Of a stretch of DNA of 64,000 nucleotides, positions 1-64,000 are shown in pieces; position 1 is the first letter of the stretch; each line of letters opens with the position of its first letter. Source of the stretch: Diphasiastrum complanatum (taxonomy: Eukaryota > Streptophyta > Lycopodiopsida > Lycopodiales > Lycopodiaceae); assembly GCA_029204225.1 (NCBI GenBank), contig CM055092.1:65694923-65758922 (forward strand), written 5' to 3'. A model generated the notes under the pieces. It searched no databases, was not told the origin of the DNA, and saw only the letters and a program-made list of their open reading frames with translations. The translations under genes and the position numbers were made by a program.

Positions 1-3000
1 ATTTTCTTGTTGTTGGATACATTTTACAACTACTAGTTTCTATGTATATGTGTATTTGATAAAGTATAGAAATATCATAGCCAAAATGCTCATTTTGTGC
101 ATGTAAAGAACATTCAATAAGAGACTTAGATGTTTGGCTCTCTTAGGAGAACATAAAACAAGTTAATATAAAGAAAACCTTTACAGAATCTACCGTTTTC
201 TTTGCAAATGACTACATGGTTATGATGGTTCAATTCCATTTGTTAAATGAACACTACAAGCATGTCATTGACTAAAGTTGGAAGCTTTTAAGATGTCAAA
301 AGAGATTTGTAAATTAGAAGAGCTGATCTGTGTAGCACCTTGGATGTGAACTTCTTTGCAGGAGCATATTCTACATAGCCTTGGTTCTCATATTTGATGG
401 GAATATCATCAGATTTAATTGGAGCTAGCAGGTAAATTTTACATGATACTTAAAATATAAAAATTATCTAGTCACTTTTAAGTTGAGAGAATTTGTTTTC
501 TCATTGTGATTTTATTGTTTGATAGCTATATATGGAGGCAACAACACATTATTGCGCATCATGCTTATACAAATGTGAACAAATTCGACCCAGATATTAG
601 TATGTTTTCTCAATCCATATTAAAATGAAGCTTGTTGACATAAATTTTGATCTTCAAATCAAATAAGTAGCATTGATATTGTATTCAATAGCACAATATT
701 TATGTGAGTATGTATGATGCAAAGTGTCATCGTGAGTACATACGATTGAATGAATTCGTAAGGTTGAATACCTTTATAGGAGCAAATGACGTTGATATCA
801 TAAGGGTCCACTTAGAACAACCAAAACACTCTTTTCATGCCTATCAGGTGAGTCATGGGATTTTTCTCTAGCAAGAATGATTATTGTCATGAGGTTACAA
901 TAATAGCCCACATAGTTACCAATGCCATCATTCGAGCTATGAAAGCCTTATGAATCCTTTTAGCATTAAATTTTTTTGCAAGTACTCTTTCAACATTCTA
1001 GGTGAATTAATTGTGAATTGTGCATTGCAGCACATATACCTATGGCCACTTTATGGTCTAATGACATTGAAGGCTATTTGGTTCGATGACTTTCAAGCCT
1101 TGTTCACAGGAAAAATTGGACAGTGAGTATTATATCTCTTAATTTGCACTATGTCTTGAAATATGCAAATTCATATACTTATTTCCATCTCATTTGCTAA
1201 AATTGCAAAAATGATATGTACCAAATATCAAGTTTATTTCTTGGATTGTCACAATGATGTGTGCTCTTTGTTATGTGTGATGTGTGGTTGTTCATGCAGA
1301 GGCATTATCACAAAAATGACACCTTTGGAAATTTTGTTTTTTTGGGGATCAAAACTCTCCTATGTTGTTTACATTGTCATCCTTCCATTTCTTTATAGCA
1401 ACTACAGAATCTCCACAATGGTGAAGCTATATATCTGATCACAGGTTTGTTGATAATCAAAATACACATGTTTCTTAGTCCAATTAGAATATGCTTAGTG
1501 AAATACACTGGTGGAATTTTTTGTCAAGAGGACTACTTGTGTGTTCATCTTTCTATATAACAAATACTACCTGTTTGGTATAGTTGGTGTGTGGATGGAC
1601 ACTAGCAATATTATTTGAGATTAGTCATGTGGTGGAATCCGCAACTTTCTTGACGGTTGATCTAAATAAAGGAGTTCCAGCTGTGCCTTATGGTTGGGCA
1701 GCAATGCAAGTTGTATAGAAAAACATTCACTCTTTAATACAATCAAATGCTTGATGCAAGATCCATGTTTTTATTATAACAGTTGCTTGATGTCATTCGC
1801 TTTCATTATTATGTTGTCTATTTAATTTTACTCATAATAAAACATGTTTTCTGAAACTACAGCAAATATTATTTTCTTATCTATTTTTTTTGTTTACATA
1901 TTAATGTTTGACTGCTTGTCTTATTCAATCAATAACAACAGGTAAGTGATTTTGATTAGATATTTTCTTTTTCCATTGTATTTGAAATGGATTCTTCATA
2001 TTATCTTCATATGCATGGTAGTTGAAAGTAAAATAGATATGGTGGCTCCAATCATTTAATATCAACCTTCCTCTACTTTGAAAGCCACAAAAGTATCCTA
2101 GAATTTTTTTGCCTAAGGCCAAACATCTAGAAATAGAATCTCAAAGTTAGATTATCAATATATGTTGTGAATTGTGGCTATTAGTTGTAAGGAGTAAGCA
2201 CTCCAAGATTCTGTTAAGAAGACACACACAAAGGAATGACTGTGGAGCCAAACCACCCAACCAGGTAGATGCTATGGACTCAATCTCCAATAGCATCACC
2301 CCTGTGCCAGGGACTAGGATGCAAGTGTAGAGAGAGTAACCTAGCAATAAAATCTCAGGGCAAGTTTCTCCTAGAGGAAATAGCCCTTGCTTTACCTCTA
2401 CTTGTGCCCATGCAAGCATACAATGTTCCCATACTTGCAACTCATTACTATTGATACTCTAGACAAAGAAAATCAAAATCATTGCCATACATGCTAAATA
2501 TTGTAGATATGTTAATCGGGAAGAAATATGCAACAAAGAACATAATATAGAGCCCTTCATGATAGAATGAATCAAAATCAAGCTCACATTTTGTCTTTAA
2601 GAAAGATTTTAAACTATATAGAATTTTCAATCCCTATATAGTGTTGATGTAGTGTTTACATTCGGCAAATGCAAAACATGGAAAGAACCAATTTTTGACT
2701 TAATGTGAATCAACATCTTTACTTTAAGAATTTGAAAGATGGACAATTTTGTAGAGTTTGAATTTCAAGTCAAATCCAAGTTTATTCATACATGAAAACT
2801 CTACTTCAAGAGAGGCTTGACTGTGTGAGATACTTAAGATTTATATGTTGTGTTGAAAAGCTACAAAATGGTTCCACAAGGGGAAAAAAAATTTCATACA
2901 TTATTTTCAACGTCATTATAGAAAAAACTCATATCTCCTTTTATATTGTATTATTATTTAAAAGTAGAAAAAATGCATAGGATCACAATGATTGACTATT

Positions 3001-4413
3001 CATTTAGTTTGTATAACTCTTTGTTCTCTAAAATGTATATTGATCACATGCCTCATTGGAAAGCAAATGTTCTATACAATTTTCAATTTGAAAATTGCTT
3101 GCAATTTGTAAATAAAGTATGAAAAGAAACCACATTCTTTCTCAATGACTCATCATTTCTCTCATAACAATGCACAATATTATTGTTTTCTAGGTATGTG
3201 CCTCAACAAACTACAACACAGGTTCGACCTTGTGGTTGCATCTATCCGGAGGACTTATTTACCAAGTAAGTTTTGGATCTTTGATATCACTTGGGCCATT
3301 TTTGTGTTATGCGATATTAAAAAGTTGGAGCATTAAAAGTATTTATGTTTTTTCATGAAAAAATGGTTTTGACCCATGAAAGGTACAAATTTGGAGAGTT
3401 GACTTGAATTTAACATACTAATGAAAACATAATGATTAAGGTGGCATGTGAGAAGTATGAATTACAGCATATGTTATTTTGACAAAGTAGACCTTGAAAT
3501 TGGCACTTGTCCAAAAGATAGATTGTTCACATTCTTTGACATGTGGTTTATAGCTTTCCATACAAGCTTGTATGTCTTTTTTGAAAATATCTAGGGCCTA
3601 CACTTGTCTTAGGCTTAAGGCCTGTTATGAACAAGTTGGCATTTGCATATTCTATATATGCACACATTTATATACTAATACATAGAAGCATCTATACAAA
3701 CTCACCTGTAAGCTTAGGATAAAGATTTGCATCATTTATATTTGACTTGCCTCATTGGTTGAAATCAAGTTGATTTTGAAGTAGTCTTTCTTCAACTATC
3801 TTTACAAAACTACAAATCTATGTACATCTTGATCTAGCTAGAAGATTATATATTTATTAGCATTTTCAAAGAAGAATTTGATTAAAATAAGAGCTTAAAG
3901 AACTTATGGGTCTATAATTACATAAAGGAGATGCTAGTTTTTTTTAGCATGTGAATGCATCTGATGTCTGAAAGTTTTAGCATGAAACTATACAAAAGTA
4001 TGATAGTAAGTTTCTCATTTTTTTATGCAGATTGAACATCACCTATTTCCAAGAGTGTGTCACGTGCACTACCCAAGTATTCAACCCATTGTGGAGGCCA
4101 CTTGCAAAGAGTTCAATATTCCATACAAACATCATGCTTCAGTATGACATTGTGGTTTTAATGCTAACAATTATTCCTCAATCATTGAATTGTGTATAAG
4201 TGTATGATTTTTCATGCTTCAATTTATTCGTTTACATGTAAACTTTAAATCAACTATTAAGTTCAACTATGTTTCTTGTGTCTTGCAATTTGAACAACTA
4301 CCTATGACCTTCAATTCGGTTCTCCCTTGTAGTTTTTTGCGGGAGTCAAAGGCCATTTTACACACTTGAAACAAGTTGGATTGAAGGATATGGATCTCAG
4401 ATTAGCTGGTTGA
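1..4413 (+). pseudogene. Front-end (delta-5-like) fatty acid desaturase, copy A, 3' part
   Basis: Front-end desaturases insert a double bond between an existing one and the carboxyl end of an acyl chain at the ER membrane, using electrons from a fused cytochrome b5. Exons deduced from splice sites: 362-431, 526-599, 780-847, 1031-1122, 1300-1444, 1584-1709, 3194-3265, 4031-4141 and 4333-4413, ending in a TGA stop. Histidine box II (HIIAHH) is in 526-599, and box III (QIEHH) spans 3265/4031. The window opens just after the exon carrying box I. Two lesions kill the frame: TAG at 376-378 (a Trp codon in copies B and F) and TGA at 1436-1438 (a Leu codon elsewhere). The Gly after HLFP is Arg. Exon lengths match the other copies exactly. 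Delta-5 specificity rests on resemblance of the box III region to liverwort enzymes recalled from memory. Confidence 0.88.
2160..2460 (-). mobile_element. Gypsy-type LTR fragment in desaturase intron
   Basis: This stretch of the large intron of copy A resembles, on the minus strand, the LTR family seen more fully at 59690-60149 and more distantly at 9650-10121. They share the motif TTGGGTGGTTTGGCTCCACA and the block around the CCTAG-rich middle. No coding part is present, so it is a solo or truncated LTR. Copies C and F carry it at the same intron position, so the insertion predates the duplications. Its ends are approximate. Confidence 0.55.
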
Positions 4414-63017: not shown

Positions 63018-63168
63018 ATATATATATATATATATATATATGTTATTTCTAAGAAACATCTCATCTCAAATATATATATATATATATATATATATATATA
63101 TATATATATATATATATATATATATATATATATATATATATATATATATATATATATATATATATATG
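63018..63168. repeat. TA microsatellites
   Basis: Two TA runs, 63018-63041 and 63070-63168, separated by 28 bp, in an intron of copy F. They lie in a ~650-bp insert (about 62915-63590) relative to copy A; nothing else is recognised in it. Confidence 0.9.
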
Positions 63169-64000
63169 AATAGGTATCTCTTTCTCCCCCCCTCCTCCCC
63201 TTTGTCTCTAGCTTCTCTCTCTCTCAGACTTCCAAATAATCATTACATTAGTAGTAATTTTGACTATAAATTTTGTCTATAGAAATTTCTTTTGCTCATG
63301 ATCAACATTGAGAACAATCGTGTAACTAATTCATATTGAATTTGCATAGTGAAGGTGAGAACGCTTGTCTAACTAATTCATATTGAATTTGCATACTGAA
63401 GGTAGTTCACTATAAGATTTGAATATTTGTGTCCATCTTTGTGTATCCTCTAATGCATTAGGAATACTAGATTAACTGATTTTTCAGAAAGCAAGCTCAT
63501 TCAAATTTCCTATATTTTTTATCACACCTCTTTTATTAGTGAGTCGATGAAAATGTGGAGGAAGACCCAATTTCTATGTTATACAAAGAAGACCTTGAGA
63601 TTGGCACTTGTCCAAAAGATAGATTGTTCACATTAGTTAGCATGTGGCTTATAGCTTCCCATACAAGCTTGTATGTCTCTTTTGAGAATATCTAGATGTA
63701 GCATGACGCCTACACTTGTCATAGGCTTAAGGCAGCCTCTTATGAACAAGTTGGCATTTGCATATTCTATATATGCATACATTTATATACTGATACATAG
63801 AAGCATCTATACAAACTCATCTTTAACCTTAGGATAACATTTATATTCAACTTGCCTTGTTGGTTGAAATCAAGTTCATTCTGAAGTAGTCTTTCTTCAA
63901 CTATCTTTACAAAACTACAAATCTATGAACATCTTGATCTAGCTAGAAGATTATGTATTTATTAGCATTTTCAAAGAAGAATTTGATTAAAATAAGAGCT

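Follow-up and report, generated by a model that had tools for sequence, protein, structure and literature searches.

Six broken front-end desaturase copies in Diphasiastrum complanatum lie in a megabase array that also holds intact genes

The stretch of DNA analysed here (the window: 64,000 nucleotides of Diphasiastrum complanatum, C1:65694923-65758922, from an assembly of 1,744,706,496 bp in 5176 contigs) contains six partial copies of a cytochrome-b5-fused front-end desaturase gene. It is a slice of an array of about 1.7 Mb, C1:64.98-66.66 Mb, with members on both strands. Intact and dead members stand side by side in this array, and selection is found on the intact ones only (four intact copies, six window copies). 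Judged from its sequence, the window is very probably part of a birth-and-death array of one front-end desaturase gene with 13 exons and a product of 488 amino acids (aa).

Copies were counted genome-wide by FA_desaturase and first-exon searches, and all these counts are lower bounds. Among the 33 genome matches to FA_desaturase that were listed, 25 cover the last histidine (His) box only. There are at least 25 such last-His-box exon matches, all of them at C1:64,984,770-66,654,312, with 14 on the plus and 11 on the minus strand; 21 of the listed ones fall into 64.98-65.96 Mb and four into 66.51-66.66 Mb, with none listed between, and exon 13 was confirmed by reading at 10 of the 25 places. 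The search with the first-exon protein gave at least 36 matches. Twenty of them, with an identity of at least 90%, are located at C1:65.13-66.66 Mb (ten per strand, seven at 100% identity). Ten others, at 33-65%, are scattered over the contigs C1, C2, C4, C14, C23, C740 and C1316, and six at 68-70% are found in both orientations at C1:34.23-34.38 Mb, where another array, formed by a related but diverged desaturase, may exist. Outside the window, we read 200 kb at 65.25-65.45 Mb (including one 10-kb run of N), both flanks, and six further stretches of the array picked for a high exon-13 score. The 276 kb formed by the window, the flanks and 65.25-65.45 Mb hold 21 exon chains as called by a script, two of which are probably halves of one copy.

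Seven full-length copies were read. Two of these carry stops (one is copy A of the window), one is open with a lost exon-10 acceptor, and four are intact. The intact gene at C1:65298984-65305664 (+) has all exons, an ATG, a single 488-aa frame and canonical splice sites; the others are found at C1:65825742 (+), 65887566 (+) and 66564543 (-), so that the intact genes sit about 389 kb to the left and 67, 129 and 800 kb to the right of the window. The three of the six further stretches without an intact gene hold a full-length copy with nine stops, a fragment of exons 13-14, and a copy at 65164734 whose exon-9 acceptor is lost and whose first exon was not found.

The coding sequences of the copies at 65.83, 65.89 and 66.56 Mb are identical (0 differences in 1467 positions), and their noncoding sequences, with poorly aligned stretches left out, differ at 35 of 7958, 16 of 7994 and 30 of 7998 positions (Fisher p 0.003, 0.067 and 0.006). 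Compared with the 65.30-Mb copy, the three differ at 13 of 1467 exon positions (0.89%) versus 147-154 of 7987 noncoding positions (1.84-1.93%; p 0.002-0.004). The pN/pS of the intact copies is 0.31. This argues that the four intact copies are held by purifying selection, unlike the window copies.

The original prediction had described the window as a graveyard with a recent functional parent, and had proposed to search the genome for an intact one. That search found four intact copies in the same array; as far as can be judged from sequence, a functional parent thus exists today, the nearest intact copy being only 67 kb away. The term graveyard is apt for the window but not for the locus, which holds four intact, constrained genes. 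A true graveyard, in which the enzyme is gone from the species and relics alone are left, is very improbable: all six window copies are disabled and look neutral, as such a loss would leave them, but the intact and constrained copies contradict it. A "lost pathway" reading therefore becomes that of a pathway present in several copies, and from broken copies in a window of 64 kb a loss of function cannot be concluded.

The window copies are as follows; exons are numbered 1-14, where the pieces "1" and "2" are one continuous first exon, so that the gene has 13 exons.

1..12237, plus strand: copy A with its 3' flank (self-comparison and exon modelling); exons 1-5 are left of the window
362-431, 526-599, 780-847, 1031-1122, 1300-1444, 1584-1709, 3194-3265, 4031-4141, 4333-4413, plus strand: exons 6-14 of copy A
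15506..18757, plus strand: copy B, 5'-deleted type; no stop or indel in the retained exons
15901-15947, 16189-16281, 16624-16771, 17270-17456, 17832-17901, 17997-18070, 18251-18318, 18502-18593, plus strand: exons 2-9 of copy B
22181..35831, minus strand: copy C with its 3' flank (self-comparison and exon modelling)
35242-35334, 33481-33628, 33018-33201, 32576-32645, 32408-32481, 32160-32227, minus strand: exons 3-8 of copy C
31884-31975, 31562-31706, 31297-31422, 29738-29809, 28864-28973, 28592-28672, minus strand: exons 9-14 of copy C
45495..47359, minus strand: copy D, exons 47311-47357, 46976-47068, 46513-46660, 45967-46058, 45647-45791
47357..47363, no strand: head-to-head junction of copies D and E (self-comparison)
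47363..55859, plus strand: copy E with its 3' flank, exon 13 at 48077-48183 and exon 14 at 48376-48456
56156..64000, plus strand: copy F, 5'-deleted type; exons 13-14 are right of the window
56538-56584, 56827-56919, 57263-57410, 57683-57869, 58246-58293 (cut), plus strand: exons of copy F, first part
58299-58364, 58548-58639, 58817-58962, 59099-59224, 62630-62701, plus strand: exons of copy F, second part

Copy A extends leftward beyond the window, where its first exon is open, and is full length when this part is included; copy F runs on rightward past the window to exon 14. Self-comparison of the window bore out the six partial copies in the predicted orientations, A(+), B(+), C(-), D(-), E(+) and F(+). 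The predicted exon lengths match exactly for exons 6-14 (70, 74, 68, 92, 145, 126, 72, 111 and 81 bp, from splice sites and open frame), and the shared intron stretches were recovered in unit blocks of more than 1 kb, with 92.7-98.1% identity in both orientations and introns included. Splice-site modelling added upstream exon pieces of 47, 93, 148 and 187 bp. An AG precedes 46 of 46 exon instances in copies A-F, that of exon 2 in copy D not being native, as this exon sits at a rearrangement junction; a GT donor follows in 41 of 43. When the joined protein was compared with the window by tblastn, the exons of A-F were matched (weakest E 4e-5) together with one further match at E 0.97, and the best E of five shuffled control queries was 0.021.

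None of the six window copies can encode a full enzyme, as had been predicted. Copy A has nonsense codons in exon 6 (362..431, W to stop) and exon 10 (1300..1444). Exons 2-9 of copy B are open, but the copy is cut at 18757 at the start of a Copia frame, so that it is disabled by this truncation and a 5' deletion and not within its retained exons. In copy C, the exon 6 donor has changed from GT to AT, exons 8 and 9 contain stops, exon 13 has a 1-bp deletion, and exon 2 was not found. Copy D is without exons 5-8, has a stop in exon 9 and carries HSGG in place of HPGG. Only exons 13-14 are left of copy E, with a 4-bp deletion in exon 13. In copy F, from which exon 7 is missing, exon 6 is fused to exon 8, and exons 8 and 10 are each frameshifted.

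The exon changes in the window copies look neutral. Exons present in at least three copies contain 63 private substitutions (44 missense, 14 silent, 5 nonsense), and the silent share of 22.2% compares with 23.6% expected without selection under the observed mutation spectrum (p 0.88); omega is 1.08 (95% confidence interval 0.59-2.12). Where at least 95% of 39 bacterial relatives agree on a residue, an amino-acid change has hit 17 of 1427 sites; at the remaining columns the figure is 33 of 3191 (p 0.65). In comparison with an intact copy, 82 missense, 32 silent and 5 nonsense differences are seen in the six window copies. With introns kept, the frame disabled and exon changes neutral, they are unprocessed (duplicated) pseudogenes. 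A processed pseudogene was considered and ruled out, since introns and 41 of 43 GT donors are retained. A date of about 5-14 million years, obtained from 2-6% noncoding divergence at 2.2e-9 per site per year, is not relied on, the rate being a gymnosperm one quoted in the excerpted text of PMC10006428.

The original prediction also stated that each copy is broken in a different way. This holds for exons 2-14 within the window, where no disabling change is common to two copies, but not for the 5' end, where a deletion of 245 bp is common to B, F and three copies outside. In all eight read copies with the first exon and the start of cytochrome b5, the anchor GAGCTGTGAAA is situated 288-291 bp upstream of TTGCTGG; in B, F and three copies outside the window (65.29, 65.32 and 65.42 Mb), the distance is only 43 bp, and the junction is identical.

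15900..15901, plus strand: junction of the 245-bp deletion in copy B (junction comparison)
56537..56538, plus strand: junction of the 245-bp deletion in copy F (junction comparison)

The 245-bp deletion took out a TATAAAA box as well as the start codon and the first 52 codons. Since the junction is common to these five copies, the dead version itself was amplified. Copy D probably belongs to the 5'-deleted type as well, because it retains four bases (AGCA) of the junction before it breaks. No separate first exon was detected when the sequence upstream of B, C, D and F was searched by motif; in B and F this exon is missing because it is deleted. In the tree of the e5-e11 segment, F groups with D and then with B, and A and C stand apart; the tree of the 5' segment has a support of 0.008, i.e. 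none.

In the birth-and-death reading, a unit of at most about 13.6 kb, comprising the gene, a 3' flank with a Copia gag remnant and an upstream block of ~96-bp repeats, would have been copied repeatedly as DNA, in direct and inverted orientation. The introns are kept and therefore the copying was not by retroposition; unequal exchange and end-joining are its probable mechanisms. Some copies would stay intact under purifying selection, as shown for four of them, and dosage may be the benefit that keeps several intact. Others, including all six in the window, would have been released from selection and then broken by stop codons and frameshifts, by the loss of splice sites, and by deletions and rearrangement breakpoints. 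In one lineage of dead copies, the single 245-bp deletion would have removed the start codon, the first 52 codons and a TATA-like box, and this lineage would then have been duplicated again, as shown for five copies. An array with live genes under selection beside unselected dead ones makes it testable why the plant keeps many copies.

Several points weigh against this reading, and all evidence for it comes from DNA sequence. The exon-13 score by which the six further stretches were picked favours intact copies, and three of the six proved intact. One of the three comparisons with zero coding differences is not significant alone (p 0.067). The private changes were polarised by majority consensus, so that some may sit on internal branches. 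Exon divergence among the window copies is 187 of 6082 positions (3.07%) versus 1326 of 35544 (3.73%) in noncoding DNA, computed on separately aligned segments instead of the whole region and from pooled, non-independent pairs; the slightly lower exon value makes a weak earlier constraint on these copies possible. Finally, some of the very similar copies may be haplotypes duplicated by the assembly.

The last point leads to an array inflated by assembly error, in which haplotypes or repeats were wrongly placed next to each other, in tandem or inverted. The segment at 65.517-65.527 Mb matches 65.365-65.375 Mb in inverted orientation with 99.6% identity, and arithmetic on the first-exon matches shows four pairs mirrored about 65.446-65.448 Mb, window copy A being among the mirrored copies. 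C1:65.20-65.69 Mb may be a palindrome some 0.5 Mb long, or else an artefact of the assembly; a false palindrome would give just such a pattern, and the desaturase matches of some small contigs score the same as a chromosome place. However, the window copies are 2.1-6.0% apart in noncoding DNA (pair totals) and have private breakpoints, which is much for haplotypes of one locus, and the deletion junction recurs in otherwise differing copies. We therefore consider such an inflation unlikely.

It is also conceivable, though improbable, that the inverted dead copies are kept as a source of small RNAs which tune the intact copies, for which the excerpted report on the chalcone synthase I locus of soybean offers a precedent (PMC6710647). 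The window contains kilobase inverted repeats of up to 97-98% identity, and first exons are equal on both strands. This stands against the lack of any coding constraint on the window copies and the distance of about 9 kb between the nearest inverted unit pair in the window, D and F. An extended version would make the array a self-tuning dial for the output of C20 fatty acids, in which near-identical intact genes add dosage and re-amplified dead, inverted, start-less copies feed small RNAs back; we regard it as a long shot.

Front-end desaturases introduce a new double bond on the carboxyl side of an existing one, and are defined by three histidine boxes with Q replacing the first H of the third. 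The assignment to this family, already made in the original prediction, agrees with Pfam: the joined pieces of B match Cyt-b5 (E 2.4e-18) and FA_desaturase (E 5.6e-10), those of A match FA_desaturase (E 6.3e-13), and the intact 488-aa protein matches Cyt-b5 at residues 42-110 (E 4e-22) and FA_desaturase (E 2.5e-28). HPGG is present in B, C and F, and the His boxes of the intact copies are HDGNH, HIIAHH and QIEHH; the predicted protein thus has the structure of a front-end desaturase, with an N-terminal cytochrome b5 carrying HPGG and three His boxes. A search of a prokaryote collection gave 40 loci, mostly from Salegentibacter, Salinimicrobium and kin. The desaturase part of the window consensus is collinear with five bacterial desaturases, with gaps of at most 4 residues and the three His boxes in register, and it agrees at 66 of 141 columns that are invariant among 39 aligned bacterial proteins. 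All 51 chains matching the B protein in a PDB sequence search do so inside the cytochrome-b5 stretch. The joined exons had no match in NCBIfam, and a viral sequence collection gave no relative.

The region of the third His box reads GGLIYQIEHH in A, C and the four intact copies, and GRLIYQ in F. At the position of the I in GGLIYQIEHH, at least 95% of the 39 bacterial relatives have N; since both the intact and the dead copies are fixed for the I, a functional role of this residue in the lineage is possible.

The enzyme probably has delta-5 activity on C20 fatty acids, and the intact 488-aa protein is a candidate for the synthesis of sciadonic, arachidonic or eicosapentaenoic acid. Long-chain polyunsaturated fatty acid desaturases of this type are reported to be absent from flowering plants but retained in other plants. 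Huperzia phlegmaria is a lycophyte of the clubmoss family. According to the excerpted text of PMC5264637, two of three lycophytes, both Selaginella, contain juniperonic acid (a C20 acid of the delta-5 type) or derivatives of it, and neither is reported for the third, H. phlegmaria; this speaks mildly against an abundant delta-5 product in clubmosses.

Further features of the window include Copia sequences and repeats.

8332..8709, plus strand: Copia gag fragment within the duplicated A unit (Pfam Retrotran_gag_2, E 5.2e-20; only the A frame was run)
23777-24103, minus strand, and 52596-53003, plus strand: frames of the same Copia gag sequence in the C and E units
18732..21425, plus strand: Copia integrase/reverse-transcriptase frame, starting where copy B stops (Pfam)
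35467..35831, no strand: tandem repeats of ~96 bp upstream of copy C; the block that precedes copy F, at 55881-56146, is related to them

A second Copia coding region is found at 12996-14789; its neighbour at 18732-21425 abuts the broken end of copy B, and no pairs of long terminal repeats were detected around these two regions. At the 3' end of the A unit, a 294-aa open frame (11259-12143, minus strand) lies partly in sequence unaligned to the E unit; it has no Pfam match above the cut-off (best DUF4292, E 0.012). The stretch 38207-41685 contains local duplications of 77-90% identity and long GA repeats, and is unrelated to the desaturase unit. Scans of the window with Rfam (gathering cut-offs) and for tRNAs gave no match.

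Arrays mixing live and dead members are well known; unusual points here are the size of the array, its layout on both strands and the amplified start-less version. Among the open-licence papers listed in literature searches, no title or abstract start described a desaturase array, which is weak evidence of absence. The delta-5 protein of Physcomitrella is presumably closely similar near HPGG, the His boxes and the C-terminus, and its gene is not known to form an array. The delta-5 desaturase gene of Physcomitrella patens is a characterised moss gene, according to excerpts of PMC3909245 and PMC5264637. The excerpt on Torreya grandis (PMC10006428) describes a cytochrome b5 delta-5 desaturase clade (TgDES1) from diverse plants except angiosperms, whose enzymes share with the array gene an N-terminal cytochrome b5 domain and three histidine boxes; the array gene is a candidate member of this clade. 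In contrast to the four desaturase genes, TgDES1 included, that a domain search gave for Torreya in that excerpt (PMC10006428), the single array described here has at least 20 first-exon matches. A parallel in layout is the I locus of soybean, where, in the excerpted text, chalcone synthase copies are likewise clustered in direct and inverted orientation and their number is altered by nonallelic recombination (PMC6710647). However, the soybean locus has about 12 copies, which make silencing RNAs (PMC6710647, excerpt), whereas the desaturase array, known from DNA alone, is far longer.

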